Below, one piece after another: positions 36,648-55,553 of a stretch of 64,000 nt of DNA. A model generated the notes under the pieces. That model was not told the origin of the DNA and did not search any database. It saw only the letters and a program-made list of their open reading frames with translations. Position 1 is the stretch's first letter. The number at the start of each line of letters is the position of its first letter. The position numbers and the translations under genes were made by a program. The DNA comes from Methylotenera versatilis 301 (GTDB lineage: Bacteria; Pseudomonadota; Gammaproteobacteria; Burkholderiales; Methylophilaceae): NCBI RefSeq assembly GCF_000093025.1, contig NC_014207.1, forward strand, positions 434,001-498,000, written 5' to 3'.

Positions 36648-37955
36648 TTAGGCACGAACGGTTTTGCCGTAGTGAGTTTCCACCATGACACCAATTTCTT
36701 TCAGGAATGGCGTAGGCAGAACGCCCCCAGCACAAATGATGACAGCAATATTGGGGATTTCGACAATTTCTTTATCGGCCAATTCCATCACTACAGAATC
36801 TAAGCGTATTTCTTTGACGTTTGATTTTAACTCTACGTTAATTTGATGCGAGGCTTCTGCTTGGGCAAGTCGATCTCTATTTTTAGCTTTGACTCTACCA
36901 AACGCTTCGCTACGATAAGATAACGTGACATTCGTATCGGGTTGCTCTGATAATGCGATTGCAGCTTCGATTGCACTGTCCCCACCGCCCACCACTAATA
37001 CATGCTGTCCGCGATATTGTTCAGGGTCTATTAGTCGGTAAACCACTTTGGCTTGATCTTCGCCAGGGACTTCTAACCTGCGTGGCGTGCCTTGTCGACC
37101 GATTGCGAGTAGGACATTTGCTGTTTGGTATGTATTTTTTGATGTCTTAACTTCGTAACCTTTCTCGGTTTTATCAACAGTTTCCATACGCTCGTTGAAG
37201 CTAACATTAAGTTCTTGTTCTTTTAATGCGCGTAACCAAAAGCCCAGTAATTCTTCCTTACTGATGTCATACATCTCCACTTTTCCAATAATTGGCAACG
37301 TGACGGGTTGTGTCATTGCCACTTTGTTTCGTGGATATTTGAAAATGGCACCACCCAAACTCACCTCTTGTTCGATTGTTAGATATTTAAGTTTTTGTTC
37401 TTTTGCAGCAAGCGTGGCAGATAGACCCGCTGGGCCCGCACCAACAATAATTACATCGTAATCATTACCTTCATTCTTTTTGGTGAGTATGGAATCAATG
37501 GCTTGTTTGCCTTGTACGGCTGCTTTACGAATTAAGCCCATGCCACCTAATTCTCCAGCAATGAAAATGTTCGAAACATTGGTCTCAAAGGTAGGCGATA
37601 CAAAAGGAATATCCATCCCGCGTTTCTCAGTACCAAATACTAATTTAATCGCCTCTACTGGACATGCTTCCAAGCATGCGCCATGGCCGATGCAGTGTGT
37701 GGGGTCAGTAAGTACGGCTTTGCCGTTGATTAAGCTGAGTGCCTTTTCAGGGCATGCTTTTACACAGGCGCCGGATCCGCAACATTTGGTTAAATCGATG
37801 ACGGGATGAATTGATGCTGGCTCGGTTAAGCCAGACTCTCTGGCTTCAGATAAACGTTCACGACCACGTCGGTTAAGTGTTCTCTGGTGAGCCATATAAA
37901 GCGCCAATACCAAAAGAAATGGCGCAAGGTATAAAATTAAGCTTATGTTTGACAT
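36648..37955 (-). CDS. FAD-dependent oxidoreductase fused to a 2x[4Fe-4S] ferredoxin
   Basis: 435 aa. An N-terminal membrane anchor (about 5-23) is followed by two [4Fe-4S] motifs (CCGSGACVKACP at about 58-69; CIGHGACLEACP at about 88-99). A thioredoxin-reductase-like flavoprotein comes next, with FAD site VIIVGAGPAGLSA (about 168-180) and NAD(P)-site VLVVGGGDSAIEAA. The redox-active CxxC of thioredoxin reductase is absent, so its electrons probably pass between NAD(P)H, FAD and the Fe-S clusters. It is divergent from the b-type membrane protein and 27-heme cytochrome genes and shares their regulatory region. I infer that it is the cytoplasmic entry or exit point of that electron chain. Confidence 0.85.
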   Translation of the reverse strand: MSNISLILYLAPFLLVLALYMAHQRTLNRRGRERLSEARESGLTEPASIHPVIDLTKCCGSGACVKACPEKALSLINGKAVLTDPTHCIGHGACLEACPVEAIKLVFGTEKRGMDIPFVSPTFETNVSNIFIAGELGGMGLIRKAAVQGKQAIDSILTKKNEGNDYDVIIVGAGPAGLSATLAAKEQKLKYLTIEQEVSLGGAIFKYPRNKVAMTQPVTLPIIGKVEMYDISKEELLGFWLRALKEQELNVSFNERMETVDKTEKGYEVKTSKNTYQTANVLLAIGRQGTPRRLEVPGEDQAKVVYRLIDPEQYRGQHVLVVGGGDSAIEAAIALSEQPDTNVTLSYRSEAFGRVKAKNRDRLAQAEASHQINVELKSNVKEIRLDSVVMELADKEIVEIPNIAVIICAGGVLPTPFLKEIGVMVETHYGKTVRA

Positions 37956-38039: not shown

Positions 38040-38069
38040 CTGACTAAACAATAATTTTAGCTATATTAT
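38040..38069 (+). promoter_or_regulatory. Candidate promoter of the cytochrome b / 27-heme operon
   Basis: CTGACT (38040-38045), an 18-nt spacer and TATTAT (38064-38069), with the 17-bp palindrome starting at the next base. An alternative start uses TATAAT at 38108-38113, whose predicted +1 (about 38120) would place the palindrome centre near -42. Confidence 0.45.
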
Positions 38070-38086
38070 GTGTGAAAATTTCACAC
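38070..38086. promoter_or_regulatory. 17-bp palindromic operator, copy 1
   Basis: GTGTGAAAATTTCACAC, a perfect palindrome around one central base. The identical 17-mer occurs at 44371-44387 and a variant at 44339-44355. It resembles a CRP half-site (TGTGA/TCACA) but has a 5-bp instead of a 6-bp centre. Confidence 0.75.
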
Positions 38087-38111
38087 GTCAAACTTTTTGA
38101 GAGGTATTATA

Positions 38112-38146
38112 ATGACTGCAAAGGATTTTTAATGCGCTTTGCATGA
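38112..38146 (+). other. Two overlapping leader mini-ORFs
   Basis: ATG 38112 has GAGAGG 7 nt before it and encodes MTAKDF; its TAA overlaps a second ATG (TAATG at 38130) encoding MRFA, stop at 38144-38146. Both sit in the leader of the b-type cytochrome gene if transcription starts at about 38076. They may be chance. Confidence 0.2.
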
Positions 38147-38169
38147 CATCTTTTAGGTAAGGAATTGTA

Positions 38170-38994
38170 TTGTTAAGTAAGATTGGACATGGATTAAATC
38201 AACTTGTCATGGTGACGTCATTGGCAGCTCTCACCTGGCTTGGCTGGAAAGTTGCGCACGGACACTACTATAAACCTGGTGTAGGCCTAGGCTATAACTT
38301 GGGTCTGATAGGCGGGTTGATGATGCTGACGCTACTCATGTATTCTTTTCGGAAACACATTAAGTTCATGCAAGGATTGGGAAAGCTTAAATATTGGTTC
38401 AGGATCCATATGATTCTTGGCGTGTTAGGGCCAGTGCTAGTGTTATTTCATACTACTTTCCGTTTAGGATCTATGAATGCAACTATCGCTTTTTACTGCA
38501 TGGTAGTGGTGGCAAGTAGCGGACTAATTGGCAAGTTTGCCTATACTCGAATTCATAAAGGGTTATATGGTAGCCGGTCTAGTTTGAAAGAGGCGCGAGA
38601 AGAGCTGGCGGGTAGTTCGGACGGGGTAAAGTCTAAATTGCACTTTTTTCCAAAAGTAGAAAAGAAAATTACTTATTTTGAGTATTTGGCTTTAGAGAAA
38701 AAACGCGGATTCTTTGAAGGACTTTGGTTCTTTTTAACTTTTGATGTGCGTCGCATGTATGTTGCTTGGCAATGTAAACGCTATATATACAAAATAATGG
38801 CGCCAAAGCAGATGAATGATGTTGCGAAAGAGGCATCTTCATTAGTTAGCCAGTATTTGATTCAGGTTCAAACTGTTGCACAATTTAAAAAGTTCGAACA
38901 GATATTCTCTGCATGGCATGTTTTGCATATACCGTTGATGTACATGATGGTAGCTAGCGCGATATTTCATGTTATTTGGGTACACATGTACTAA
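38170..38994 (+). CDS. b-type cytochrome-like inner-membrane protein
   Basis: 274 aa with about five membrane segments (roughly 12-28, 42-60, 78-96, 100-120 and 250-272) and a large charged cytoplasmic-type loop (about 125-235). Histidines suited to ligate two b hemes lie in or next to the helices: FRIHMILG, LVLFHTTF, AWHVLH and IFHVIWVHMY. I do not recognise a named family; the pattern is that of small di-heme quinone or ferric-reductase-like membrane proteins. The start is TTG 38170 with TAAGGA upstream. Its stop is 14 bp before the 27-heme cytochrome ATG, so it most likely exchanges electrons between the quinone pool and that cytochrome. Confidence 0.75.
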   Translation: MLSKIGHGLNQLVMVTSLAALTWLGWKVAHGHYYKPGVGLGYNLGLIGGLMMLTLLMYSFRKHIKFMQGLGKLKYWFRIHMILGVLGPVLVLFHTTFRLGSMNATIAFYCMVVVASSGLIGKFAYTRIHKGLYGSRSSLKEAREELAGSSDGVKSKLHFFPKVEKKITYFEYLALEKKRGFFEGLWFFLTFDVRRMYVAWQCKRYIYKIMAPKQMNDVAKEASSLVSQYLIQVQTVAQFKKFEQIFSAWHVLHIPLMYMMVASAIFHVIWVHMY

Positions 38995-39008
38995 CAGGGC
39001 CGATATTA

Positions 39009-41009
39009 ATGCTGCGTTTCATTAGTCTTTTTGTGCTGACTTTCTTCCTTTCGCTGAATGCAGGGGCAGATACGCTTGAGTCTGTGATGATGCCAGGCAA
39101 GGTGATTCAGGGTCATGTTAAGTGGGAAGATGATTGTAAGCAGTGTCATAAAAAGTTTGATAAAGAAGGGCAGAATCAGCTTTGTAAAGATTGTCACAAG
39201 GACATTAATAAAGATGTTTCGCAAAAGAAGGGCTTACACGGCAGGCTAAAAGAATCGCGTAATTGTGTAGAGTGTCACACCGAGCATAAAGGCCGTGCGG
39301 CTCAAATCGCGCCTATCAATGAAAAAACCTTCAAACATTCACAAACTGATTTTGAGCTAAAGGGCGCGCACGCTGATGCAACTAAAACAGAATGTAAAGA
39401 ATGTCACAAACCTAAAGTCAAATACCGTGATGCGCCAAGCGCTTGTAATGCTTGCCATAAAAAAGATGATAAACACGACGGTACGCTGGGTGTGGATTGT
39501 CAGAGTTGTCACAACGAGAAGAACTGGAAAGAAACCCGAGAAAGATTTGACCATAACAAATCAGATTTTGCGCTAGAAGGTAAGCATGCGGACGTTAAAT
39601 GTGATGAGTGTCATAAGTCTAAAAAATATAAAGAAGCGCCTAAAGATTGTTTTTCCTGCCATAAAAAAGATGACAAACACAAAGGTACTTTAGGCCAAAA
39701 ATGTGCAAACTGCCATACCGCTAAAGATTGGAAAGAAACCACCTTTGACCATGGTAAAGATGCGCATTTTGTTTTGCGTGGTAAGCATGCCACTGCAAAG
39801 TGTGAAAGTTGCCATAAGCCCAGTGCACCTAGCCTAAAACTACCAACTAGTTGCGTAGCTTGCCACAAAGGCGATGATAAACATGAAGGTACATTAGGTA
39901 ACCGCTGTGAAAAATGTCATGTGGAAAAGAGCTGGACAAGTACGCCAGGCTTCGATCACGATGATACTAAATTCCCGCTTCTTGATAAGCATAAAGCCGC
40001 TAAGTGCCAAACCTGTCATAAAAATGGTATGCAGGAAAAACTGCCGCTATTGTGTAATGATTGTCATAAAAAAGAGGATGATACAAAAGGTCATAAGGGT
40101 GATTTTGGCACCAAATGCGAAAGCTGCCACACCGCTAAAGATTGGAAGTTACCTAGTAAATTTGACCATACGCGTGATACTAAATACCCACTTAAAGATA
40201 AGCATAAAGATACTAAATGTGTTGAGTGCCATAAAGGCAAGCTTTATGGACAAAATCTAAAAACTGACTGCTACTCTTGCCACAAGAAAGATGATGATAA
40301 TAAAGGTCATAAAGGTCGTTACGATCAAAAATGTGAAACTTGTCACATAGAAAAAACATGGAAAACGCTTATTTTTGATCATGACCGTGATACCAAATAT
40401 AAATTACTTGATAAGCATAGAGCGACCAAGTGCGATTCTTGCCATAAAGCTAATCTCTACAAAGATAAAGTGAAAAGCACCTGTGTTAGCTGCCATAAGT
40501 CGGATGATAAGCATAAGGGCCAAGAGGGGGATAAGTGCGAAGATTGTCATAACGCAAAATCTTGGAAAGATGCTAAATTTGACCATGCAAAATCGAAATT
40601 TCCGTTATTGGGTAAGCATTTCAAAGTGGAATGTAAGAAATGCCATCTAACAGCAGAGTTCAAAGATGCGAAATCAGAATGTGTCAGCTGTCACACCAAA
40701 GATGATGTGCATAAGCTTAAGTTAGGTCCTGCGTGCGAAACTTGTCATAACGCACGTGACTGGAAAGCTTGGGATTTTGATCATGATAAAAAAACCAAAT
40801 TCAAGCTTGATGGAGGGCACAAAGGTATAGGCTGTTATGAATGCCATAGAGTACCATCAAAAGGCGCTAAGCTAGTGACTTCAGTCACTTGCGGTGACTG
40901 CCACTCTTCTGATGATGTTCATGATGGAAGCTTCGGGCGTCAGTGCGAACGTTGCCACGTTTCTAATACTTGGTCGGAGGTGAAAATGGGGGTAGGCGTT
41001 TCTAGGTAG
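39009..41009 (+). CDS. 27-heme c-type cytochrome made of eight three-heme modules
   Basis: 666 aa. A signal peptide (MLRFISLFVLTFFLSLNAGA) is followed by 27 CxxCH motifs. The first three form an N-terminal group. The other 24 fall into eight modules of about 60-70 residues, each with three CxxCH and recurring cores such as CHKKDDKHKGTLG and FDH, rich in Lys, Asp and His. The His residues outside CxxCH (KHAD, DDKH, FDH) can supply the second axial ligands. Very basic and hydrophilic, probably periplasmic, a molecular wire. A TTG 33 bp upstream is in frame, but ATG 39009 starts the signal peptide directly. It forms an operon with the b-type membrane protein. Confidence 0.93.
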   Translation: MLRFISLFVLTFFLSLNAGADTLESVMMPGKVIQGHVKWEDDCKQCHKKFDKEGQNQLCKDCHKDINKDVSQKKGLHGRLKESRNCVECHTEHKGRAAQIAPINEKTFKHSQTDFELKGAHADATKTECKECHKPKVKYRDAPSACNACHKKDDKHDGTLGVDCQSCHNEKNWKETRERFDHNKSDFALEGKHADVKCDECHKSKKYKEAPKDCFSCHKKDDKHKGTLGQKCANCHTAKDWKETTFDHGKDAHFVLRGKHATAKCESCHKPSAPSLKLPTSCVACHKGDDKHEGTLGNRCEKCHVEKSWTSTPGFDHDDTKFPLLDKHKAAKCQTCHKNGMQEKLPLLCNDCHKKEDDTKGHKGDFGTKCESCHTAKDWKLPSKFDHTRDTKYPLKDKHKDTKCVECHKGKLYGQNLKTDCYSCHKKDDDNKGHKGRYDQKCETCHIEKTWKTLIFDHDRDTKYKLLDKHRATKCDSCHKANLYKDKVKSTCVSCHKSDDKHKGQEGDKCEDCHNAKSWKDAKFDHAKSKFPLLGKHFKVECKKCHLTAEFKDAKSECVSCHTKDDVHKLKLGPACETCHNARDWKAWDFDHDKKTKFKLDGGHKGIGCYECHRVPSKGAKLVTSVTCGDCHSSDDVHDGSFGRQCERCHVSNTWSEVKMGVGVSR

Positions 41010-41072
41010 GTGTGTCTATTTTACTGGTTGTACTTCACTTAATGCTTATTAAATCAATGGCTGCTTACGCAG

Positions 41073-41861
41073 TTAAAACGTCCAGCCTAACATTAAGCCG
41101 CCGCCCAAGTCAGTACTCGCATCAGTATTGCCGCCAGTAAGGTAACTTTGCAATTTGTAATTAGCGTTGAATTTATGCGTTAAAAACACTGTTAGCTCTC
41201 TTAAAGGCTGAGAGGTGTTCATTGTGGCTTGTCTAATATCTGCCATCATGCCTGCACTGGTGGCGGGGCTGAGCTTATAAGCGAACCCTGCTGATCCATA
41301 CCAAACATTATTTAAATTGATGCCAGATGGATCACCTAATTTTTTGTAGCCAATATCTCCGAATAAAGTGACTGCAGTGTAGATTGATTTGTAGGCATCA
41401 AGTTCTGCGGTGTAATCGTTTTCGCCAGTGCCTAAACCTTTTGAGCTAGAGGCTGTGGCAAATTTAACTTTACCAGTTAAGTCTATTAGTAGTGGATTGT
41501 GTTCACCGAACTGTGCAATGGTTTGAGTAGCAGAAAACACAATATCTCCAAGGCCAGATTCAGTCGTGGTAGGGCGATTGGACGTACCTATTACAATAGG
41601 TGTATTCCCACCGACTACATCGCCTGGCCCCGTTATTTTTACCCAAGGAACAGTGAGTTTTAGTGTGGTGTTGCCAGTATCATACTTGGCAATAAAAGGG
41701 ATGTAAGTAATGTCTGTCGATTCAGATTGTCCGTATTTTCCAGTGCTGTAATCTACCCCGCTGGTTAAACTTAATTTGCCTTCTGCATAACTTGCTAAAG
41801 GCAAAAGGCTAATTGTAGAAATGAGTAGGTTAGTTATTTTGAGTTTAATTTTGTAGTTCAT
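41073..41861 (-). CDS. Outer-membrane beta-barrel protein (phenol-degradation MetA-like)
   Basis: 262 aa. Signal peptide (LLISTISLLPLASYAEG) then alternating amphipathic strands ending in GGGLMLGWTF, with the C-terminal Phe typical of outer-membrane barrels. The segments LTSGVDYSTGKYGQSESTD and LTVPWVKITGPGD resemble the MetA-pathway-of-phenol-degradation family, which are small barrels often labelled transporters. The cargo is unknown. It is the last gene of the minus-strand set DUF6502, DUF5666 and this barrel, inside the cytochrome island. Confidence 0.75.
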   Translation of the reverse strand: MNYKIKLKITNLLISTISLLPLASYAEGKLSLTSGVDYSTGKYGQSESTDITYIPFIAKYDTGNTTLKLTVPWVKITGPGDVVGGNTPIVIGTSNRPTTTESGLGDIVFSATQTIAQFGEHNPLLIDLTGKVKFATASSSKGLGTGENDYTAELDAYKSIYTAVTLFGDIGYKKLGDPSGINLNNVWYGSAGFAYKLSPATSAGMMADIRQATMNTSQPLRELTVFLTHKFNANYKLQSYLTGGNTDASTDLGGGLMLGWTF

Positions 41862-41956
41862 GATTTATTTTTGTTGTGTACGTCTACGATTAAATTTTTA
41901 AATGAATAGTGCTTCAAGTTAAGTTAGCTACATCAATGCTATATTTTGAAGAAAAT

Positions 41957-43324
41957 TTAGTCATCTCGCCTCTCCACTCTTTCAATTCTTTCGGTTCTAT
42001 CAGGCGTTTCCACCCTCTCTACTCTTTCAACTTTTTCGACTCTATCAGGCGTTTCCACTCGCTCAACCTTTTCTACTTTTTCAACTTTATCCTGCTTATA
42101 AACTCGATCTGATAATTCAGCTTTGTCAGCTTTCTTATACTTATTTTCAGACTTATTGGATAAGTTAGCTTCACCCGACTTGGTACCAGTGTTTTCGCCT
42201 GACTCACTGGGTGAATTAGGTTGAGGTGTTTTTGTCGGACGTTCTAGGCGATTTTTGACCTCTATTTTCATCGGACGCAATTCAATTGACTGCGCTCTTG
42301 CCTTGCCGTCTTTCATTTGGCCGTGCGCGACAATAGGTTTGCCTACTATGCTGGTTGAGTTATTACCTAAAATTTTAATATTCGCTGGCACGGTTACATT
42401 TTGCCCGGAAAGCTTGACTTTCCCATTAGACACATTGCTTCCAGCGATACCTTGCAAGTGGAACACTTCAACTTTTTGCAGCAAATCACTCACTGGCCCA
42501 GGCTTCATATCCTTAACATTAAAGGTGCTACCATCCCAAACGCCAGTTAAACGAGAGTCAGCATTTGAGTTGTAATTCATGTTAGATATACCATCTATTT
42601 TAGTGCCACCCACATAGGCTTTATTGCCCTGCATACTTAAATTACCAACTATTTTGGCAATTTTACGCTCAGTAGATTGGTCGATGCGACTAGCTTCAAT
42701 ACTGCCATCTTCATTGCGTAAGCCGCTCACACTCACCCATTGACCGACTTGCATATTGTTGATTTGAGCGTCATTTGCATTAATAGACTGTCCCATGACT
42801 TTTACCTTATTCGCTACAAGGTCTATCGCAGTGATCGGTCCAGTCACTTGATAGAAAGCATGTATTTCATGAGCAATCAGAGACTGCTCTTTTCCTTGCG
42901 CCTTCACAGCGACTACTTGACCAACCGAAAGTGCATCGCTGCTGATTTTTTTACCATCTAAATCTATAGGGGTGTCGTTGTAATAGTGTACTTCTAAACC
43001 GTTCACACAGATACTGCCAAACCCTGTGATAATGCCAACAATACCAGTACCGCCGATACCGCTATTAGCTTCTATGCCAGTACCACCAATACCTTTATTA
43101 GTTACACCAGTCCCACCTATGCCTTCTTGCGCGCTGGTAATGCCTGTTCCACCAATACCTGTAGATTTGTCAGAATTAATGCCTGTTCCACCAATGCCGC
43201 CAGTACCAAGACTTAATGGCATACCTGTACCGCCAATACCGCCTTCATCACAAGGGTTGGCGTTTGCCGATAGCGACAATATCGTCAATATGATGGCAAT
43301 GTAATTGTGAATGTAAGTTTTCAT
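41957..43324 (-). CDS. DUF5666 protein with GIGGTG repeats and a charged repeat tail
   Basis: 455 aa. Signal peptide (YIAIILTILSLSANA) and a Cys near the mature start. Six GIGGTG hexapeptides occur within about residues 28-95. Three beta-rich DUF5666-type segments follow (about 95-350; patterns such as VGQVVAVKAQG, VGQWVSVSGLR and GKPIVAHGQM). A disordered tail of about 100 residues ends in charged repeats of the VEKVERVETPDR type. Probably exported and bound to metal, polymer or the cell surface; the function is unknown. It lies 65 bp after the DUF6502 gene and 95 bp before the barrel gene, likely one operon. Confidence 0.8.
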   Translation of the reverse strand: MKTYIHNYIAIILTILSLSANANPCDEGGIGGTGMPLSLGTGGIGGTGINSDKSTGIGGTGITSAQEGIGGTGVTNKGIGGTGIEANSGIGGTGIVGIITGFGSICVNGLEVHYYNDTPIDLDGKKISSDALSVGQVVAVKAQGKEQSLIAHEIHAFYQVTGPITAIDLVANKVKVMGQSINANDAQINNMQVGQWVSVSGLRNEDGSIEASRIDQSTERKIAKIVGNLSMQGNKAYVGGTKIDGISNMNYNSNADSRLTGVWDGSTFNVKDMKPGPVSDLLQKVEVFHLQGIAGSNVSNGKVKLSGQNVTVPANIKILGNNSTSIVGKPIVAHGQMKDGKARAQSIELRPMKIEVKNRLERPTKTPQPNSPSESGENTGTKSGEANLSNKSENKYKKADKAELSDRVYKQDKVEKVEKVERVETPDRVEKVERVERVETPDRTERIERVERRDD

Positions 43325-43389
43325 ATTAACTAATCCTATAGTTAATTTAAGTTTGAATTGGCACTCGGCATGAGTTTTAACATACTCAT

Positions 43390-44277
43390 TCAGTCAATTC
43401 GAACTTTTTTTCTGCGGTAGAACGCATGTGGCAATTTGGCCCCCAAACCTTCTGCTACATGGTAAAAATACAATGCATAAGTAAAGCGTTGGTTTGCATT
43501 GGCATTGTTTTGGGATTCAGTCTGCAATTCAATAGCACGCGCGTTGACGGCCTTTAACGCAGTCATCCCATGATGTTCCGCAAGTACCTTTAATTCATTA
43601 ATAGCTTCTAATGTCAGACTGTCGTAATAGACACAACGTTCTAACATAGGAGGAGTTAAGTTCATTAAATTATGCGCCGTTGCAGCGGCATGGTCATGTA
43701 TATTTTGTTGGAAGAAGAATAATTTTTCTTCAAAACCTTCGCTTGGCACAAATGCTTCGTTATTCAAACATACGCAATCATTCTCATCTAAATAAGCAAC
43801 ACCAATTCTTAGCCACTCATCAAGCACAGGTCTAGCGCGAATGTCTTTGCTAACTCGGGCAACAAGGCGATCAAAAGAAACGTTACCACCTACACTTGCT
43901 AAACGCGCTAAAGGCTTAGGCTTGCCTTCTGCATCAACAAAATCGGCGTCACTAATCCACAAACCCACTAATTGAGAGCCTAAAGTCACAAGTGATGTAG
44001 TTTGTGTGTTTTCAGGTTGGTCGCGTAATCGATGCACATCCTTACGATGCAAGCCCGTTAGCAGGCTGATTCGACTATCAGTTTGTTCACGTTGTGATAA
44101 TTTGAACTCTTCTTCAGCCACCTGTACGAATACTACTTTTAATGTTTCTAGCAGCATTTGATAGTTAATGCCTTGCGTCAGCGCTAGACGGACGAGCGGT
44201 TTCATCACCCGCTGTAAAGCAGTGAGTACTTTTTCCTTTATAGGATTATCCGAAGAGATTTCAGCGTTCTTTATCAT
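43390..44277 (-). CDS. DUF6502 family protein with N-terminal helix-turn-helix, putative regulator
   Basis: 295 aa, soluble. The N-terminal part reads as a winged-helix-like DNA-binding domain: a helix with VMKPLVRLALTQGINYQMLLETLK (about 25-48), then SRISLLTGLHRKDVHRLRD (68-86) with the probable recognition helix at 77-86. The rest is helical and unassigned. I recognise the family as DUF6502, which is often next to DUF5666 genes, as here. The gene is divergent from the 34-heme cytochrome gene, and two copies of the 17-bp palindrome lie between them, so it is the best local candidate for the protein that binds them (inference). No Shine-Dalgarno sequence; TATAAT (minus, 44290-44285) ends 7 nt before the ATG. 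Confidence 0.78.
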   Translation of the reverse strand: MIKNAEISSDNPIKEKVLTALQRVMKPLVRLALTQGINYQMLLETLKVVFVQVAEEEFKLSQREQTDSRISLLTGLHRKDVHRLRDQPENTQTTSLVTLGSQLVGLWISDADFVDAEGKPKPLARLASVGGNVSFDRLVARVSKDIRARPVLDEWLRIGVAYLDENDCVCLNNEAFVPSEGFEEKLFFFQQNIHDHAAATAHNLMNLTPPMLERCVYYDSLTLEAINELKVLAEHHGMTALKAVNARAIELQTESQNNANANQRFTYALYFYHVAEGLGAKLPHAFYRRKKVRID

Positions 44278-44284
44278 GAGTTAA

Positions 44285-44290
44285 ATTATA
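44285..44290 (-). promoter_or_regulatory. -10 box directly before the DUF6502 start codon
   Basis: TATAAT on the minus strand, 7 nt before the ATG at 44277; no clear -35 hexamer. The predicted start point falls at or next to the start codon. Confidence 0.5.
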
Positions 44291-44333
44291 CAAATAATTG
44301 AAAAAATATGTGGGATTTTTTTACACAAAACGG

Positions 44334-44362
44334 TTGACGTGTGAATTTGTCACACGTATTAT
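44334..44362 (+). promoter_or_regulatory. Near-consensus sigma70 promoter of the 34-heme cytochrome gene
   Basis: TTGACG (44334-44339), a 17-nt spacer and TATTAT (44357-44362). A palindromic operator occupies the spacer and another begins about where transcription should start. That geometry predicts repression. Confidence 0.75.
44339..44355. promoter_or_regulatory. 17-bp palindromic operator, copy 2 (in the promoter spacer)
   Basis: GTGTGAATTTGTCACAC, six-base arms GTGTGA/TCACAC around five bases, extended by C and G outside to seven. Its centre is 32 bp, three helical turns, from the centre of copy 3. Confidence 0.75.
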
Positions 44363-44370
44363 TGGCCTTC

Positions 44371-44387
44371 GTGTGAAAATTTCACAC
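44371..44387. promoter_or_regulatory. 17-bp palindromic operator, copy 3 (at the start point)
   Basis: GTGTGAAAATTTCACAC, identical to copy 1 at 38070-38086. It covers roughly +2 to +18 of the predicted transcript. Confidence 0.75.
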
Positions 44388-44502: not shown

Positions 44503-47193
44503 ATGTTACCAAAGACATCAGTAAATAAAACAGATTCCATCCAATCCAGCCGTGTATTCGCTATGCTGAACTGGACTGCTTTGTTATTGGCAACATTATT
44601 AATTATTTTATCATTCTCAACAGGCGACGCTTCAGCTGCAAGTCAAAGAGGTCGCTCAGCGGCGAATTTTAATCACAGTAAAACGGGTTTCCTTTTAAGT
44701 GGTGCTCACTTAAGAGTTAACTGCGAAAGCTGTCATACAAACGGCATTTTCAAGGGAACGCCTAAGCAATGTGAGAGTTGTCATGTACAAAGTGGCCGCG
44801 CTTCAGCATCAGCTAAGCCTAGTCAGCACATACCTACAAATAAAAGTTGTGAAACTTGCCATAAATCTACAAATTGGCCAACGGTGAGTTTTGTGCACGA
44901 TAGTGCAACTGACGGCACATGTTCTACCTGTCATAATAATACGAATGAGCGTGGCAAACCGGCTCAACATCCGTCAACAACCGCTACTTGCGATACTTGT
45001 CACAAGAGCACTAATGCTTGGTTACCAGCATTAGGTCATGATCATACTGGTGTCGTCGCGGGAACTTGTGCGACTTGTCATGGCAAAACAGCTACAGGTA
45101 TGAAAGCTGGGCACATTAGCACCAGCCAGTCATGTGATGCTTGTCACAAAACAACGGGCTGGACCCCTGCGAAAATGAATCACACAGGTATCACTAGTGG
45201 TTGCGCAAGCTGCCATGATGGCAATAAGGCGCTTGGCAAATCCAGTAATCACATCAAAACATCGGCATCTTGCGAAACTTGCCACAGTTCAACCACCAGT
45301 TTTAAAGGTGGAAAAATGGATCACACCGGCATCACCACCGGCTGTGCGACCTGCCATACCACAGGCGGCGCCGGCTTAGCTAAACCGACTAACCATATTC
45401 CGACCACCGCCTCATGTGAAACCTGCCACAAATCGACGACCAGCTTTGCTGGCACCACGATGAACCACACTGGTATTACCACAGGCTGCGCGACCTGCCA
45501 TAACGGCACCAGCTATGCCGGTGTTAAACCTGTGTCTAAACCCAGCACGCACATTGCCACCACAGCGGCCTGTGAAACCTGTCATAAGAGCACCACCAGC
45601 TTCAAAGGTGGCGCCACCATGAACCATACCGGCATCACCACCGGCTGTGCGACCTGCCATACCACAGGCGGCGCCGGCTTAGCTAAACCGACTAACCATA
45701 TTCCGACCACCGCCTCATGTGAAACCTGCCACAAATCGACGACCAGCTTTGCTGGCACCACGATGAACCACACTGGTATTACCACAGGCTGCGCGACCTG
45801 CCATAACGGCACCAGCTATGCCGGTGTTAAACCTGTGTCTAAACCCAGCACGCACATTGCCACTACCGCGGCTTGTGAAACCTGTCATAAATCAACGACA
45901 TCATTTTTAGGGGCAGCCTTTAACCATACTGGTATTGTGAGTGGTTGTGCAACCTGCCACAACGGTACAACCGCACTAGGTAAGCCAAGTACGCACATCG
46001 CCACTACAGCAGCCTGCGAGACCTGTCATAAATCGACGACCTCATTTGCAGGTACAGTGATGAACCACACTGGTATTACTACGGGCTGTGCGACTTGCCA
46101 TAATGGTACGACTGCGTTAGGCAAACCTGCTAATCATGTGCAGACCACAGCGGGTTGCGAGACTTGCCATAAGTCGACCACGTCATTCTTGGGTGCTACA
46201 TTCAATCACACTGGCATTACAACGGGTTGTGCAACCTGCCATAACGGTACAACCGCACTAGGTAAGCCAAGTACGCACATCGCCACTACAGCAGCCTGCG
46301 AGACCTGTCATAAATCGACGACCTCATTTGCAGGTACAGTGATGAACCACACTGGTATTACTACGGGCTGTGCGACTTGCCATAATGGTACGACTGCGTT
46401 AGGCAAACCTGCTAATCATGTGCAGACCACAGCGGGTTGCGAGACTTGCCATAAGTCGACCACGTCATTCTTGGGTGCTACATTCAATCACACTGGCATT
46501 ACAACGGGTTGTGCAACCTGCCATAACGGTACAACCGCACTAGGTAAGCCAAGTACGCACATCGCCACTACAGCAGCCTGCGAAACCTGTCATAAATCGA
46601 CGACCAGCTTTGCTGGCACCACCATGAACCATACTGGCATCACCACTGGTTGTGCAACTTGCCATAATGGTACGACTGCGTTAGGCAAACCTGCTAACCA
46701 TGTGCAGACCACAGCGGGTTGCGAGACTTGCCATAAGTCGACCACATCATTCTTGGGTGCCACATTCAACCATACTGGTATCGTGAGTGGCTGTGCGACT
46801 TGCCACAACGGCACGACTGCGTTAGGTAAACCTGCTAACCACGTGCAGACCACTGCTGGTTGCGAGACTTGCCATAAGTCGACTACTACATTTACTGGTG
46901 CAGCCTTTAACCATACAGGCATCGCCCCAGGTAGTTGCTCAACTTGCCATAATGGCGCCACTGCTATGGGCGTGATATCTAACCACGTACCTATAATTGG
47001 TATTTCTTGTGATACTTGCCACACTGGCACCACTAGCTTTAGTAATCCTAAAAAACCTAATCATTCGTTATTGACCGCAACATGTAGATCTTGTCACGGC
47101 GCTAAATATGTTGGCGTTGAGTCAAAATCACATAACTCACCTAAAGACTGTAACTCTTCAGGTTGTCACAACACAAATACATTCAGCAAATAG
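44503..47193 (+). CDS. Giant multiheme c-type cytochrome (34 CxxCH plus one CX4CH)
   Basis: 896 aa. A signal/anchor segment (about 22-47, LNWTALLLATLLIILSFSTG then DASA) precedes 34 CxxCH motifs and a final CNSSGCH (883-889), a CX4CH heme-binding variant. The body is a string of roughly 47-residue two-heme units: CETCHKSTTSF, a short loop, NHTGITTGCATCHNGT and KPANH or KPSTH. The recurring His in NHTG and NH/TH can be distal heme ligands. It is Thr/Ser/Gly-rich and poor in charge, unlike the Lys-rich 27-heme protein, which suggests a surface or extracellular location. Shine-Dalgarno GGGGAG precedes the ATG. It is followed by a hairpin, the TPR/barrel gene and the ccm operon. Confidence 0.93.
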   Translation: MLPKTSVNKTDSIQSSRVFAMLNWTALLLATLLIILSFSTGDASAASQRGRSAANFNHSKTGFLLSGAHLRVNCESCHTNGIFKGTPKQCESCHVQSGRASASAKPSQHIPTNKSCETCHKSTNWPTVSFVHDSATDGTCSTCHNNTNERGKPAQHPSTTATCDTCHKSTNAWLPALGHDHTGVVAGTCATCHGKTATGMKAGHISTSQSCDACHKTTGWTPAKMNHTGITSGCASCHDGNKALGKSSNHIKTSASCETCHSSTTSFKGGKMDHTGITTGCATCHTTGGAGLAKPTNHIPTTASCETCHKSTTSFAGTTMNHTGITTGCATCHNGTSYAGVKPVSKPSTHIATTAACETCHKSTTSFKGGATMNHTGITTGCATCHTTGGAGLAKPTNHIPTTASCETCHKSTTSFAGTTMNHTGITTGCATCHNGTSYAGVKPVSKPSTHIATTAACETCHKSTTSFLGAAFNHTGIVSGCATCHNGTTALGKPSTHIATTAACETCHKSTTSFAGTVMNHTGITTGCATCHNGTTALGKPANHVQTTAGCETCHKSTTSFLGATFNHTGITTGCATCHNGTTALGKPSTHIATTAACETCHKSTTSFAGTVMNHTGITTGCATCHNGTTALGKPANHVQTTAGCETCHKSTTSFLGATFNHTGITTGCATCHNGTTALGKPSTHIATTAACETCHKSTTSFAGTTMNHTGITTGCATCHNGTTALGKPANHVQTTAGCETCHKSTTSFLGATFNHTGIVSGCATCHNGTTALGKPANHVQTTAGCETCHKSTTTFTGAAFNHTGIAPGSCSTCHNGATAMGVISNHVPIIGISCDTCHTGTTSFSNPKKPNHSLLTATCRSCHGAKYVGVESKSHNSPKDCNSSGCHNTNTFSK
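45325..45863 (+). repeat. 303-bp tandem duplication inside the cytochrome gene
   Basis: Bases 45325-45560 recur without a difference at 45628-45863 (offset 303 bp = 101 codons). The block uses more GC-rich codons (GGC, ACC, GCC) than the rest of the window. Confidence 0.95.
45961..46580 (+). repeat. 282-bp perfect tandem duplication inside the cytochrome gene
   Basis: Bases 45961-46242 are repeated exactly at 46243-46524, and identity continues into a third, partial copy (46525 to about 46580). One unit is 94 codons with four CxxCH motifs. Confidence 0.95.
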
Positions 47194-47346: not shown

Positions 47347-49614
47347 ATGAATCTATCTAAAAAGATTTACCTAGTTTTAGCGTTTATTTGTTCACTTGCG
47401 CCTTCTTTGGCATATGCAGATAAAATTCTGGATAAAGTTGAAATCGTACAGGCGCAAAACGAGACAGAAATTCATATTGAGTTCTTAACGCAAGTGCGAT
47501 ATTTGAGGCATGCGCCATTAAATACTGAAACTTCACGCATTCAAATCTTCTTAGAATTTCCTCAGCTCACAAAAGAAACGCTATCAAATCAGCGTGAGTT
47601 TCGGAACTCACCCAAAACAAATCTTGTGCCTCGTTTTACCGTTAACTATCCTGAGCAAGAGACTAATAGCATAGGCGTGCGATTTAAAAGCCCCGTCAAG
47701 TTCGCGGTCACGCCAGATAATAGTGGTCGTGGTATCGTGATTCATGTGCCTAATGACAAGGCCGGAGTCGTTGCAGAGCCAGTTGTGGAGCCGCCAGTAG
47801 AGCCTGTGATTGATCATGGTCCTCAAGGTGAAATTCCAGCAAAGCCTGCTGATATGAGTGACAACGATTACGCAGCAAAATTGATGGCTGAGGCGCGCGT
47901 CGCAAGAGGATTCGGTGATTACCCTAAAGCAGTGCAGCTACTCAATGCTGTACTTGCTTTACCAAGCAACACTCATTCACAAGACGCCCAAGAGCTAATT
48001 GCGAATTCGCGTGAAAAAATGGGTGAAATGACTAAGGCAAAAGCGGAGTATGAAACCTATCTTAAGCTTTATCCTCAAGGAGAGGGAGCTGCACGCGTTC
48101 GACAGCGTTTAACAGCATTGGAAGGGTCTGGTAAATTTAGTAGTGCTGATGCAGCTAAAACCAAAAAGCCAATTCGAGATATTCATGAAAACACAGTGTA
48201 TGGTAGCTGGAATCAGTATTACTATGATGCACACAGCCATAATTACCCAGGTTCTGGCAAAAATACGGGAACGCATGATCAGTCTCAACTGGTAAGCGCG
48301 ATGGACCTTACTGCGCGATTCCGCCAAAACGAGTGGGATAGCCGAATTGTAATCCGTGATACGCAAACAATGGACTTTCTGCCCAATAAGGCCGATCGCA
48401 ATAGATTACAAGCTGCTTATGTAGAAGTGCAGAATAAAGAGTCAGACTTTATGACACGTTTAGGTCGGCAGAATGGTAATTCTGGTGGTGTTTTAGGTCG
48501 ATTTGATGGCGGACTATTTCGCTATGGATTATCGCCGCAATACAAATTGAACTTTGTTGCAGGCACATTAGACGAATATAATATTGACTATAGACGCCAC
48601 TTTTATGGAATTAATCTGGATATTGGTCCAATAAATGAAAAGTGGAGTGGTAATGCATTTTTCATTGAGCAGCGTGTTGATGACTTAATTGACAGGCGTG
48701 GTGTAGGTGGTGAATTGCGTTATTTTGATATGGGAAAATCGTTATACTCAGTGGTAGATTATGATACTTATTTTAATCGCTTAAATACAGCTATGGTGCA
48801 AGGTAACTGGCAACCAGCAGAAGGTACCAGTTATAATATCTTAATGGAAAACCGTAAGTCGCCAGTATTGCAGTTGATTAATGCGTTATTTGATCCTGCA
48901 TTTCAAAATCAGACGTTTTACCCAACAACGCCTACATCACTACGTCAAGCATTGCGAATTGGTAGTACTATAAGCGCCCCCAATACTTTAACTGTGTCAG
49001 GATTAAGAGATTATGCAATCAACCAAACATTGGATACCAGCTTGTTTTTAGTAGGCGCAACACGTCAAGTGACGCCTCGCTGGCAATTGGGTGGAGATGT
49101 TCAAATGAGTAGGGTAACTGGTAGTGCCAATGCAAGCAAAGGCGCAATAGATCTTGCAAAAAAAGCGGCGGCAGACAATGGTACTTTTTTAAGCGACCTC
49201 GATATACAAAATCTTACTAATAGCTTTGCTGGTGGTAATACTTATACTTACCATGTGCAGGCAGTGGGTTTAGATACGCTATTTAAAGATGATACTTCGA
49301 TTATTGGTCTAAGTTATGTTGATGGTCCAACAAGCCGTGTTCAGTCGGTTGTATTAACTAACGTCATGGTGCCTCGTGATAAATGGCGTTTGGATAGCTC
49401 GGTGAAATTGCTCAGAATTGAGTCGGATCCAGCTTCAGTACAATATGTTGTTGGTCCTACCCTCAGAGCAAGCTACCGCCTGCGTGAAAAAGCGACTATA
49501 GAAGCAGAGGTGGGTTTGGAAGTGACAAATGAAAATAGTTCAGACAGCTTTAATCCTGGACACACTCGTACATTCCGCGATTTCAGCTTTATCGGCTACC
49601 GTTTGGATATTTAA
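47347..49614 (+). CDS. Outer-membrane beta-barrel protein with periplasmic TPR region, putative cytochrome porin
   Basis: 755 aa. Signal peptide (KKIYLVLAFICSLAPSLAYA), a beta-rich AMIN-like domain (about 28-135), a Pro/Val linker, TPR-like helices (about 170-265, LMAEARVARGFGDYPKAVQLLNAV), then a barrel of about 470 residues rich in alternating strands, ending GYRLDI. No CxxCH or CxxC is present. It directly follows the giant cytochrome gene, so it may be the pore that lets the cytochrome cross or contact the outer membrane, as MtrB does in porin-cytochrome complexes; I see no sequence likeness to MtrB. Its stop overlaps the ccmA start (TAATG). Confidence 0.78.
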   Translation: MNLSKKIYLVLAFICSLAPSLAYADKILDKVEIVQAQNETEIHIEFLTQVRYLRHAPLNTETSRIQIFLEFPQLTKETLSNQREFRNSPKTNLVPRFTVNYPEQETNSIGVRFKSPVKFAVTPDNSGRGIVIHVPNDKAGVVAEPVVEPPVEPVIDHGPQGEIPAKPADMSDNDYAAKLMAEARVARGFGDYPKAVQLLNAVLALPSNTHSQDAQELIANSREKMGEMTKAKAEYETYLKLYPQGEGAARVRQRLTALEGSGKFSSADAAKTKKPIRDIHENTVYGSWNQYYYDAHSHNYPGSGKNTGTHDQSQLVSAMDLTARFRQNEWDSRIVIRDTQTMDFLPNKADRNRLQAAYVEVQNKESDFMTRLGRQNGNSGGVLGRFDGGLFRYGLSPQYKLNFVAGTLDEYNIDYRRHFYGINLDIGPINEKWSGNAFFIEQRVDDLIDRRGVGGELRYFDMGKSLYSVVDYDTYFNRLNTAMVQGNWQPAEGTSYNILMENRKSPVLQLINALFDPAFQNQTFYPTTPTSLRQALRIGSTISAPNTLTVSGLRDYAINQTLDTSLFLVGATRQVTPRWQLGGDVQMSRVTGSANASKGAIDLAKKAAADNGTFLSDLDIQNLTNSFAGGNTYTYHVQAVGLDTLFKDDTSIIGLSYVDGPTSRVQSVVLTNVMVPRDKWRLDSSVKLLRIESDPASVQYVVGPTLRASYRLREKATIEAEVGLEVTNENSSDSFNPGHTRTFRDFSFIGYRLDI

Positions 49615-50228
49615 TGCTATTAGCGCAAGGGTTGGCATGCTTGCGCGGTGATCGCTTGCTGTTTAAAAATGTAGAGTTTGAGCTTGATACAGGCGGCTTA
49701 CTCTATGTGCTGGGCGAGAACGGTAGCGGCAAAAGTAGTTTACTGCGTATGCTGTGCGGATTGATGTTGCCAGAAAGCGGAACAGTTTTCTGGGATAAAA
49801 AAACCATCAAAGAAGAGGCTGAAAACTATTTGTCCAATCTCACTTATATTGGACATTTGAATGGTCTTAAAGATGATCTTACCGCGCTAGAGAATTTAAC
49901 AATGAGCGCACGTGCCGCAGGTAATGAAGTGTCAGAAGATAAGGCATTGGCAGCATTAGCTGCTATTGGAATCGAGCGTTGTGCAAATTTGCCAGCACGC
50001 GTGCTATCGCAGGGGCAGAAAAGACGCGTGACGCTTGCTAAGCTTTGGTTGGCTGAAGGTAAATTATGGATATTAGATGAACCCTTTGCTGCGTTAGATA
50101 TTGCGTCAGTCACTGTACTTGCTGCAAAGTTAGGCGAGCATTTATCTAATGGCGGAATGGCGATTCTTACCACTCATCAAGATGTCACGATTCACGCACA
50201 GTCGACTCAAACTTTGAGGTTAAGTTGA
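49614..50228 (+). CDS. ccmA: Heme exporter ATP-binding protein CcmA
   Basis: 204 aa ABC ATPase. Walker A GENGSGKSS is at 34-42, the signature LSQGQKRR at about 131-138 and Walker B LWILDEPF at about 150-157. With CcmBCD it releases holo-CcmE carrying heme in System I cytochrome c maturation. Its ATG overlaps the stop of the barrel gene by one base, an unusual attachment of the ccm operon to an electron-conduit gene, and its stop overlaps ccmB. Confidence 0.95.
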   Translation: MLLAQGLACLRGDRLLFKNVEFELDTGGLLYVLGENGSGKSSLLRMLCGLMLPESGTVFWDKKTIKEEAENYLSNLTYIGHLNGLKDDLTALENLTMSARAAGNEVSEDKALAALAAIGIERCANLPARVLSQGQKRRVTLAKLWLAEGKLWILDEPFAALDIASVTVLAAKLGEHLSNGGMAILTTHQDVTIHAQSTQTLRLS

Positions 50229-50896
50229 TGAACGGTGCATGGATGACCGTGCTGAAGCGCGATCTTTTATTGGCTTTCCGTAGACGTTCTGATGTTGCGA
50301 CAACGCTATTTTTCTTCTTGATTGTATCCAGCTTGTTTCCGCTAGGCATTGGTCCGGAGCCTGCGGTGTTAAGTAGCATCGCACCGGGTGTTTTATGGGT
50401 GGCGGCATTATTAGCTGGCATGCTATCGCTCACGCGTTTATTTGCTGCAGATTTTACTGATGGTAGTTTAGAGCAAATGTTACTCGCGCCGCAGCCATTA
50501 ACTTTATTAGTAACGGCTAAGGTGTTAGCGCATTGGCTAGTTTGCGGCTTGCCAGTGGTGGTGTTAGCGCCATTGATTGGTTTGCAGTATACGCTGCCAA
50601 ACGATTCCTTATTCGTGCTCATTATTTCTTTATTGTTGGGTACGCCAGCATTGAGTTTAATTGGCGCAATTGGCGCTGCGCTTACATTAGGTGTTCGTGG
50701 TAGTGGGTTATTGGTGGCATTATTAGTGTTACCTTTATACATTCCAGTATTGATTTTTGGCGCAGGTGCAGTCGCAGCCAGTCAGCATGGTATGAGTGCA
50801 CAGGCGCATCTTTCATTGCTGGCAGCCTGTTCTTTACTTGCTTTGGTGTTGGCGCCATTGGCTACAGCTGCTGCATTACGTATCTCTGTAGAATAA
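50228..50896 (+). CDS. ccmB: Heme exporter membrane protein CcmB
   Basis: 222 aa with six membrane helices. It starts near WMTVLKRDLLLAFRRRSD and carries the CcmB pattern RLFAADFTDGSLEQMLLAPQPL and LGTPALSLIGAIGAALTLG. It is the permease partner of CcmA. The ATG at 50228 overlaps the ccmA TGA (TGATG); a TTG one codon earlier is unlikely. Confidence 0.95.
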   Translation: MNGAWMTVLKRDLLLAFRRRSDVATTLFFFLIVSSLFPLGIGPEPAVLSSIAPGVLWVAALLAGMLSLTRLFAADFTDGSLEQMLLAPQPLTLLVTAKVLAHWLVCGLPVVVLAPLIGLQYTLPNDSLFVLIISLLLGTPALSLIGAIGAALTLGVRGSGLLVALLVLPLYIPVLIFGAGAVAASQHGMSAQAHLSLLAACSLLALVLAPLATAAALRISVE

Positions 50897-51003
50897 ACCG
50901 TAGGTAGAGTAAAATATGCGCCACTGTGAAATTCAGTCGTGAATTACAATTAGATTACCGTGCAATTTGAATGCAATTACAGAGCAATTTGAGCAAATAA
51001 ATT

Positions 51004-51753
51004 ATGAGCATTAATTGGTTTAAATATTCGTCACCACAAGCTTTTTACCCGCTAGCTGGAAAAATGATTCCATGGTTTGTTTTGCTAGCCACAATTTTCG
51101 CTGTCGCTGGTTTGTACATCAGCTTTGCTATTGCCCCCACTGATTTCCAGCAGGGTGAGGCGTATCGCATTATTTTTGTCCATGTGCCCGCTGCTTGGAT
51201 GTCTATGGTGATTTATATCGCTATGGCAGGCTGGGCGGCGTTAGGGTTAGCGCTTAATGCGCGACTATCTGCCATGATGGCACAAGCTTTAGCGCCTACA
51301 GGCGCAATATTTACCTTACTCGCTTTGGTCACAGGTTCACTGTGGGGCAAGCCGATGTGGGGTGCATGGTGGGTGTGGGACGCGCGTTTAACCTCTGAAC
51401 TTATTTTATTGTTTTTGTATCTTGGCTTCATTGCTTTGCAAGCGTCAATTGATGATCCACGTCGTGCAGATAGAGCAGGAGCCTTGTTAGCACTGGTTGG
51501 TGTGGTGAACGTGCCGATTATTTATTTTTCAGTGAAATGGTGGAATACCTTACATCAAGGTTCTAGCATCAATATGGGCGCAGCGCCAAAAATGGCGGCG
51601 ACTATGTTAATGGGAATGCTGCTCATGGCTTTAGCCTTTTGGATGTATACCGTGGCGGTTGCATTGATGCGCGTGCGCTGCATTATGCTGGAGCGTGAGC
51701 GTTCCTCGGATTGGGTTAAAGAGCTGTCAGTGACAACAGGAGGAAAATCATAA
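51004..51753 (+). CDS. ccmC: Heme exporter/handling protein CcmC
   Basis: 249 aa, six membrane helices. The tryptophan-rich heme motif WGAWWVWDARLTSELIL is present, as are the flanking His residues in VHVPAAWMSM and WNTLHQGSS. CcmC loads heme onto CcmE in the periplasm. The stop overlaps ccmD (TAATG). Confidence 0.96.
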   Translation: MSINWFKYSSPQAFYPLAGKMIPWFVLLATIFAVAGLYISFAIAPTDFQQGEAYRIIFVHVPAAWMSMVIYIAMAGWAALGLALNARLSAMMAQALAPTGAIFTLLALVTGSLWGKPMWGAWWVWDARLTSELILLFLYLGFIALQASIDDPRRADRAGALLALVGVVNVPIIYFSVKWWNTLHQGSSINMGAAPKMAATMLMGMLLMALAFWMYTVAVALMRVRCIMLERERSSDWVKELSVTTGGKS

Positions 51754-51917
51754 TGCAATGGGCAAGTTGGTCAGCGTTCTTTAATATGGGAGGCTACGCA
51801 TTTTATGTGTGGTTTTCTTTCGGTTTAACGGCACTTTGTGTCGTTTGGGAAGTCATATCTCTGCGCAAACGTAGTAAAGCTGCATTACGGTTATCTAAAA
51901 TTCTGGCACAAGGTTAA
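51753..51917 (+). CDS. ccmD: Heme exporter protein CcmD
   Basis: 54 aa, too short for many gene finders. [20 protein letters not shown] then a single membrane helix (about 18-36) and a basic C-terminus ([14 protein letters not shown]), the standard CcmD form. It helps release holo-CcmE from the CcmABC complex. The ribosome-binding site AGGAGGAAA is strong, and its GGAGGAAA is complementary to the loop of the RNA candidate near 3.3 kb. It overlaps ccmC by one base and ends one base before ccmE. Confidence 0.9.
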
Positions 51918-51918
51918 T

Positions 51919-52377
51919 ATGGCTATAAAAGCACGACATAAACGATTTATTTTGATAGTGATTGGTTTGGCATTGTTGGGTCTAGCTGCAATGCTTATTT
52001 TGAATGCTTTCCAAAGCAATATGGTGTTCTTCTACACCCCAACGCAAGTAGATAAAGGCGAAGTGCCACACGGTACAGGCTTCCGTATCGGTGGCTTAGT
52101 AGTAAAAGATAGTTTAAAACGTCAAGATGATGGTTTAACCGTTCACTTTGCTATTACAGATACAGCCAAAACGGTACCAGTCGTTTACAAAGGTGTTTTG
52201 CCAGATTTGTTTAAAGAGGGCAAAGGCGTGGTAGCGCAAGGTAAGGTAGGTCCAGATGGCATATTTATCGCCAGTGAAGTGCTTGCTAAGCACGATGAAA
52301 ACTACATGCCGCCAGAAGCTGCAGAAGCGCTGAAACGCGCTCAAGAGCAAGGTAAAACGGTCGTGATGTCTAAGTAA
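51919..52377 (+). CDS. ccmE: Periplasmic heme chaperone CcmE
   Basis: 152 aa. One N-terminal anchor helix (about 9-30) and an OB-fold domain. The covalent heme-binding His is His125 in KHDENYMP, with Tyr129. Starts further upstream in the same frame fall inside ccmD; the ATG at 51919 gives the family N-terminus ([13 protein letters not shown]). It hands heme to CcmF/H. Confidence 0.96.
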
Positions 52378-52405
52378 TACAGCTTAAAAATACTCGCTTG
52401 CTGTA

Positions 52406-52454
52406 TGTAGGTCGGGCCTTTAGCCAGACTTGTCAGCTTAAACGCCGACCTACA
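52406..52454. repeat. REP-like palindromic element between ccmE and ccmF
   Basis: TGTAGGTCGG (52406-52415) and CCGACCTACA (52445-52454) are perfect 10-bp arms around about 29 nt. The GTAGGTCGG...CCGACCTAC form is common among dispersed intergenic palindromes of proteobacteria. Only one copy is in the window. Confidence 0.55.
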
Positions 52455-52530
52455 AAAAGCAGGTTCATGCAATTATCGAAATACTCAAAATTCAATAAAT
52501 ATATAGATTAAATTCACTAAGGATATTAAC

Positions 52531-54513: not shown

Positions 54514-55037
54514 AGCGCGCTTTATTACCCTTAATCATATTTTTGGTGGTTGTAGGATTTCTTTTTAAAGGTCTGTTTTTAGATCCACGCGAAGTGCCTT
54601 CTCCATTGGTAGGTAAGCCGGCTCCGCAGTTTAGTTTGCCACGCTTGGATAGCCCTGATACTAAAATTTCGCCTAAAGAAATGTTAGGTAAAGTCTGGTT
54701 GTTTAATGCATGGGCGTCATGGTGCCCTGCATGTAAAGATGAACATCCACTTTTAGTCGAGTTATCTAAAACAGGCTTTGTGCCTATTATTGGTTTAGAT
54801 TACAAAGATACCAACCAAGAAGCTCAGCAATGGCTAGATCAAGCTGGCAACCCTTATGCAGCAAATGCTGTAGATGCTGATGGGCGTGTAGGCATTAACT
54901 ATGGTGTATATGGCGTACCAGAAACTTATGTCATTGATAAAACAGGCATGATTGCTTACAAGCAAATTGGCCCGATTACGATGGAAGCATTACGTGACAA
55001 AATCATCCCTTTAGTTAAAAAGTTGCAGGCTCAATAA
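54510..55037 (+). CDS. ccmG: Thiol:disulfide interchange protein CcmG/DsbE
   Basis: 175 aa. N-terminal membrane anchor (about 4-24) and a thioredoxin fold with WASWCPACKDEHP (CPAC at 72-75) and the cis-Pro segment YGVPETYVID. It keeps apocytochrome cysteines reduced for heme attachment. Overlaps ccmF and ccmH (TAATG). Confidence 0.95.
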   Translation: MKRALLPLIIFLVVVGFLFKGLFLDPREVPSPLVGKPAPQFSLPRLDSPDTKISPKEMLGKVWLFNAWASWCPACKDEHPLLVELSKTGFVPIIGLDYKDTNQEAQQWLDQAGNPYAANAVDADGRVGINYGVYGVPETYVIDKTGMIAYKQIGPITMEALRDKIIPLVKKLQAQ

Positions 55038-55498: not shown

Positions 55499-55553
55499 GC
55501 TGTTGTGAGTAAGTAAACTGCCGAATCAGTGAATGATTAAATAAGGAAGCACC

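Follow-up and report, generated by a model that had tools for sequence, protein, structure and literature searches.

The window analyzed here, a stretch of 64,000 nucleotides from Methylotenera versatilis 301 (contig NC_014207.1, positions 434,001 to 498,000), contains a 17-bp palindrome, GTGTGA-N5-TCACAC, in a gene cluster that encodes two multiheme cytochromes and a protein of the DUF6502 family. The comparisons described below indicate that this palindrome is very probably the operator of the DUF6502 protein. We propose with good confidence a model at the core of which an autoregulatory DUF6502 repressor would occupy a phased array of operators and block RNA polymerase, and it is fairly probable that the effect of the protein in the Methylophilaceae is repression. 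DUF6502 probably represses both itself and electron-transfer genes, and the family looks like a self-regulating transcription factor. The sites, the promoter elements and the gene of the proposed regulator are as follows; promoters were identified by consensus only.

38070 to 38086, no strand assigned: operator 1, GTGTGAAAATTTCACAC, located between the Fe-S flavoprotein gene and the divergent unit of the 274-amino-acid protein and the 27-heme cytochrome
44310 to 44326, no strand assigned: operator 2a, GTGGGATTTTTTTACAC, a degenerate additional site upstream of the DUF6502 -10 element, conserved in orthologues
44339 to 44355, no strand assigned: operator 2b, GTGTGAATTTGTCACAC, lying in the 34-heme promoter spacer
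44371 to 44387, no strand assigned: operator 2c, GTGTGAAAATTTCACAC, covering the position where transcription of the 34-heme gene is expected to start
38063 to 38091, minus strand: near-consensus promoter TTGACG-17-TAATAT, whose spacer contains operator 1 and which is directed towards the gene at 36648-37955
44334 to 44362, plus strand: 34-heme promoter TTGACG-17-TATTAT, a consensus call
44285 to 44290, minus strand: DUF6502 -10 element TATAAT, 7 nucleotides before the ATG, called from the sequence
43390 to 44277, minus strand: DUF6502 protein of 295 amino acids, the proposed operator-binding regulator (PF20112, 1.4e-30), with a predicted helix-turn-helix at about residues 67-85

As reported in the initial annotation, operators 1 and 2c are identical copies and operator 2b is a variant. 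GTGTGA-N5-TCACAC has exactly three matches in the 3,059,871-bp single-contig genome, and the reversed pattern, used as a control, has none. The motif is not widespread at unrelated genes, since all three copies (3/3) lie in one 6.3-kb cluster. When the window was scanned with the full 17-mer allowing up to 3 mismatches, 6 strand-matches were obtained at the three known places compared with 0.28 expected, while a scan with the arms alone at the same tolerance gave 22 matches against 22.1 expected, which is chance level. The signal is carried by the exact sites, and the loose look-alikes carry none. Operator 2a, which has 2 mismatches and reads GTGTAAAAAAATCCCAC towards DUF6502, was at first taken as a chance 2-mismatch match of the window scan. 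Methylophilaceae orthologues have it in the corresponding position, in the form of GTGTAAAA-rich ...CCCAC sites located 29 bp from the neighboring site, and because of this recurrence the DUF6502/34-heme intergenic region is considered to have three sites (44310, 44339 and 44371) with spacings of 29 and 32 bp.

The identification of DUF6502 as the likely binding protein, which had been suggested from the window alone, is supported by the distribution of the motif, which tracks DUF6502 within the order and, with a broader consensus, in other families and phyla. Among 101 related genomes searched, DUF6502 is encoded in 22 and the exact motif is present in 15, 14 of which encode DUF6502 (Fisher test, 9e-11). 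In a set of 80 DUF6502 loci from named genomes, nearly every Methylophilaceae locus had the GTGTGA form, and sites resembling GTGKRA-N5-TYMCAC, mostly 50-250 bp upstream of DUF6502, were found in Nitrosomonas, Pseudomonas, Azoarcus/Aromatoleum, Rhodocyclaceae, Competibacteraceae, and records labelled Myxococcales and Planctomycetota. On this comparison, the deeper consensus of the family is GTGKRA-N5-TYMCAC, and GTGTGA/TCACAC is its Methylophilaceae version. A site upstream of the DUF6502 gene, the mark of the proposed DUF6502-operator group, is present here (three sites in the window).

The scan of DUF6502-encoding genomes for the upstream motif, which the initial annotation had put forward as a check, revealed a family-wide enrichment that takes the broader form outside the Methylophilaceae. 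A score of at least 11/12 for GTGKGA-N5-TCMCAC was found upstream of DUF6502 in 33 of 66 non-Methylophilaceae loci compared with 0.2 expected from shuffles, and a score of at least 10/12 in 51 of the 66 (about 4 expected). An unbiased search for gapped palindromes in 50 loci, deduplicated by upstream similarity, recovered GGGA-N5-TCCC in 13 and GGAA-N4-TTCC in 14, while no word exceeded 7 loci in the shuffles. For the class-level test the pattern was fixed before 370 genomes were scanned. The strict pattern occurred in 20 of 100 genomes with DUF6502 and in 9 of 270 without it (Fisher test, 1e-6; reversed control, p=0.41), a test that is nearly, not fully, independent because some species may be shared among the sets analyzed. 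A match was located no more than 350 bp upstream of the DUF6502 gene in 12 of the genomes scanned, representing 9 families.

The position of the sites relative to the promoters was also analyzed. The 34-heme promoter consists of TTGACG (44334-44339) and TATTAT (44357-44362) with a 17-nucleotide spacer, as had been annotated, but the palindrome does not fill this spacer exactly; operator 2b is shifted by one base, such that its first G coincides with the final base of TTGACG. Operator 2c begins roughly at +1 to +3 relative to the expected start point, consistent with the earlier proposal that the second copy would cover it, and the 32 bp between the centers of the two sites, which corresponds to three turns of the helix, was confirmed. 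This tandem spacing recurs in other lineages: site pairs no more than 120 bp apart had spacings of 27-35 or 59-63 bp, with two 22-bp pairs at Pseudomonas loci as the sole exceptions, and the reversed-sequence control gave no site pairs at all. The recurrent spacing supports the three-turn arrangement and extends it past this genome. In addition, many Methylophilaceae sites have the operator at a fixed offset inside TTGACG-17-TATTAT-like promoters.

The palindrome had been described as marking both cytochrome units. This holds for the 34-heme promoter, whereas the promoter through 38070 is directed left to the Fe-S flavoprotein gene (36648-37955) and away from the 27-heme cytochrome unit. It is therefore not obvious that operator 1 controls the 27-heme cytochrome; control from the divergent side is possible. 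Many Methylophilaceae have an equivalent of operator 1 close to the corresponding genes, with a candidate in the Rhodocyclales locus L104, and the same promoter layout occurs in orthologues (L090 at 6746, L091 at 14275, L095 at 9642 and L100 at 7278).

In the proposed mechanism, a DUF6502 dimer would bind GTGKRA-N5-TYMCAC, or GTGTGA-N5-TCACAC in the Methylophilaceae, by means of its N-terminal helix-turn-helix. Three sites about 30 bp, or three helical turns, apart would place the dimers on one face of the DNA. Occupation of operator 2b in the -35/-10 spacer and of operator 2c over the start point would exclude RNA polymerase and repress the 34-heme gene, and it is the location of the operator in the spacer of TTGACG/TATTAT promoters that implies repression in the Methylophilaceae. 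Operator 2a, upstream of the DUF6502 -10 element, would provide autoregulation, in which the DUF5666 and 262-amino-acid genes downstream probably share by co-transcription with DUF6502. Operator 1 would mediate repression of the Fe-S flavoprotein promoter and perhaps also of the 27-heme unit on the divergent side, and some signal would presumably release the protein. The logic of a palindromic operator within a promoter combined with autoregulation is known, while the novelty appears to lie in the regulator family and its operator. Autorepressors of the TrpR, TetR and DeoR types are generally known to share the palindromic operator inside a sigma-70 promoter and the divergent target and regulator genes. 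In contrast, the DUF6502 protein matches such proteins only in its helix-turn-helix region, about 50-75 residues, and a Pfam scan (E up to 10) detected no membership in the TrpR, TetR or DeoR families.

The start region of the DUF6502 gene (44278-44290, minus strand) was found to have no Shine-Dalgarno sequence, and the Methylophilaceae orthologues are alike. Because of this, and because TATAAT ends 7 nucleotides before the ATG, the DUF6502 mRNA may be leaderless.

Several findings weigh against an operator of DUF6502 with a repressing role throughout the family. The strict pattern had no match in 80 of the 100 class-level genomes that encode DUF6502, while the broader pattern occurred in 9 class-level genomes that lack it and in the DUF6502-less relatives G007 and G052. 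Of the 66 outside loci, 15 score below 10 within 350 bp, 7 of them having a perfect site 0.7-1.3 kb upstream, and in L104 the score of the site at 13539 is just 10/12. The motif was not found at the divergent DUF6502 clade L023-L025 or at the short paralogues L027-L029. Finally, DUF6502 may act as an activator outside the Methylophilaceae, where the sites overlap less canonical promoters.

Activation by DUF6502 from the same site, as HetR, the heterocyst master regulator, reportedly does at some promoters, is considered unlikely. It would suit the many non-Methylophilaceae sites that immediately precede a -10-like element with no clear -35, and the best fold match of the protein is a regulator with activating roles. 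The Methylophilaceae operators, however, are found within near-consensus TTGACG-17-TATTAT promoters and on top of the expected start, which is the classical polymerase-blocking layout. It is improbable that the site is bound by a different regulator that co-occurs with the DUF6502 module, DUF6502 being merely a target. Although co-occurrence and proximity cannot tell a regulator from a target, and G007 and G052 keep similar sites in the absence of DUF6502, the element common to the site neighborhoods of the Methylophilaceae, Nitrosomonas, Pseudomonas, Rhodocyclaceae, Competibacteraceae and the records labelled Myxococcales and Planctomycetota is DUF6502, with its predicted helix-turn-helix. 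The DUF5666 and 262-amino-acid proteins look exported, judging from their N-termini.

A protein of the CRP/FNR family was also evaluated as the binder, given the resemblance of the site to TGTGA-N6-TCACA, and was rejected as highly improbable. The GTGTGA/TCACAC half-sites of the Methylophilaceae version are CRP-like, and four proteins of the genome score above the HTH_Crp_2 cut-off. The motif nevertheless follows DUF6502 and not a CRP/FNR homologue, as CRP/FNR-type proteins are present in 10/10 DUF6502-less congeners tested and the exact motif is present in none of them. Moreover, the three genomic copies are all in the DUF6502 cluster, and the arms outside the Methylophilaceae are GTGGGA/TCCCAC, unlike those of CRP. 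The center of the site is 5 bp here compared with 6 bp in CRP sites, and neither a cNMP-binding domain nor HTH_Crp was matched in DUF6502 in the Pfam scan (E up to 10). Chance palindromes or inherited similarity without function have a negligible probability and were rejected; AT-rich intergenic DNA often has short palindromes, but the enrichment is far above the shuffles and reversed-sequence controls with the loci deduplicated.

The DUF6502 protein of the window is a clear member of PF20112 (106.5 bits against a cut-off of 27, profile positions 6-263 of 268) and is encoded in a single copy in the genome; its operator and regulatory role are newly proposed here. The family is without assigned function, and no mention of DUF6502 or PF20112 was found in the literature searched (subscription papers and preprints being outside its scope), in line with the earlier statement that no operator was known to have been assigned to it. 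NCBIfam and PADLOC contained nothing for DUF6502, and a profile search of Protein Data Bank (PDB) sequences returned only spurious matches to sucrose phosphorylase. The helix-turn-helix noted in the initial annotation is backed by two AlphaFold2 models, one for the window protein and one for a Pseudomonas member (predicted local distance difference test scores of 80 and 86, respectively), and by their structural matches. Both models predict helices at about residues 67-74 and 78-85 (window numbering) around a nearly invariant LLTG-x-HRKD motif. Within the recognition helix, H82 accompanies many TCACAC sites in the Methylophilaceae. A strict covariation of residue 82 with the operator arm was dropped, as R82 in L094 also occurs with TCACAC and phylogeny confounds the comparison.

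In the structural comparison, HetR was the first match for both models (Z of 8.7/8.6 and 8.8-8.2 over 223-229 residues), and the next matches had Z of 6.9 or less over 53-55 residues. The match to the HetR fold, with its DNA-binding domain, flap and hood, covers nearly the whole chain with Z of 8.2-8.8, in the "middling" range of the tool, and a root-mean-square deviation of 5.8-7.5 Å. Foldseek placed HetR at rank 1 for the Pseudomonas member (E 0.03, probability 0.94) and gave no significant match for the window protein. No similarity to HetR was detected in sequence: the hhalign probability was 0.1%, with 231/300 decoys as high and a HetR side of two near-identical sequences, and the HetR family was not among the Pfam matches of DUF6502 at E up to 10. 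Further HetR relatives were sought in plasmids and viral contigs, and none were found. The HetR site at hetP is a 17-bp inverted repeat, GAGGGGTCTAACCCCTC, and HetR requires the core GGG-N5-CCC (PMC4192349, PMC4649674). DUF6502 resembles HetR in its similar length, N-terminal helix-turn-helix, proposed autoregulation and 17-bp inverted-repeat site, and differs in that its sites read GGG-N7-CCC or GTG-N11-CAC.

Tentatively, DUF6502 may be a HetR-fold transcription factor family outside the cyanobacteria, related in structure to the heterocyst master regulator over its full length and perhaps, very remotely, by descent. In this reading it would control the DUF5666 module of many proteobacteria and, in the Methylophilaceae, genes for multiheme electron transfer. 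The basis of this reading is a pair of predicted models together with a palindromic site of loose similarity, with sequence support absent. DUF6502 is not filed under HetR, and the likeness in fold is taken as a lead only. If it is true, a regulator fold reported as new from cyanobacteria would have relatives in other organisms. A function-unknown family found in 100 of the 370 class-level genomes sampled gains a probable role together with a predicted binding site and an initial regulon, and the Methylophilaceae gain a candidate switch for the large multiheme cytochromes and their neighbors, for which no described regulator was found.

The genes surrounding the sites are listed below.

36648 to 37955, minus strand: Fe-S/FAD oxidoreductase (Fe-S flavoprotein), downstream of the operator 1 promoter
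38170 to 38994, plus strand: 274-amino-acid membrane protein, first gene of the 27-heme unit, with no Pfam family and an orthologue in L104
38976 to 41009, plus strand: multiheme cytochrome with 27 CXXCH motifs
41073 to 41861, minus strand: 262-amino-acid protein, third gene of the DUF6502 module, without a Pfam match, perhaps an outer-membrane barrel
41957 to 43324, minus strand: DUF5666 protein (PF18914) with GGIGGTG repeats, the same-strand neighbor of DUF6502 in most lineages
44503 to 47193, plus strand: multiheme cytochrome with 34 CXXCH motifs
47347 to 49614, plus strand: 755-amino-acid protein with weak tetratricopeptide repeat (TPR) similarity, followed by ccm genes

Judging from gene neighborhoods, the common core is DUF6502, DUF5666 and the 262-amino-acid protein, with homologues of the latter two downstream on the same strand in 55/66 and 44/66 outside loci, respectively. 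By comparison, the cytochromes, the 274-amino-acid membrane protein and the flavoprotein occur in only one outside locus, L104, and the operator is therefore tied to the DUF6502-DUF5666 module more widely than to the cytochromes. In L104 the whole cluster recurs, with an operator-like site upstream of DUF6502, a site between the flavoprotein and 274-amino-acid genes (10/12), and a site about 190 bp before the 34-heme-like match (11/12).

GGIGGTG repeats are numerous close to the N-terminus of the DUF5666 protein, a feature shared by its homologues at most DUF6502 loci. The 34-heme gene is followed by a cytochrome c maturation run (49614-56828) encoding an ABC ATPase, CcmB, a CcmC-like protein, CcmE, CcmF, a redoxin and a CcmH/CycH-like protein. 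The paralogues L027, L028 and L029, of about 170-187 amino acids and without the C-terminal part, have a different palindrome in common, CTATCA-N4-TGATAG, at about -146 to -170 relative to the family match. Sites of the GTGKGA-N5-TCMCAC form were also observed at a glycine-zipper gene beside metG in four genomes with DUF6502 and in G007 (loci L073, L075, L076, L077 and L079). A candidate extra target lies at genome position 2280854 (L070:3855), where a hybrid site, GTGTGATAATTTCCCAC, stands beside a small uncharacterized gene whose orthologues in G001, G023 and G040 also have such sites.

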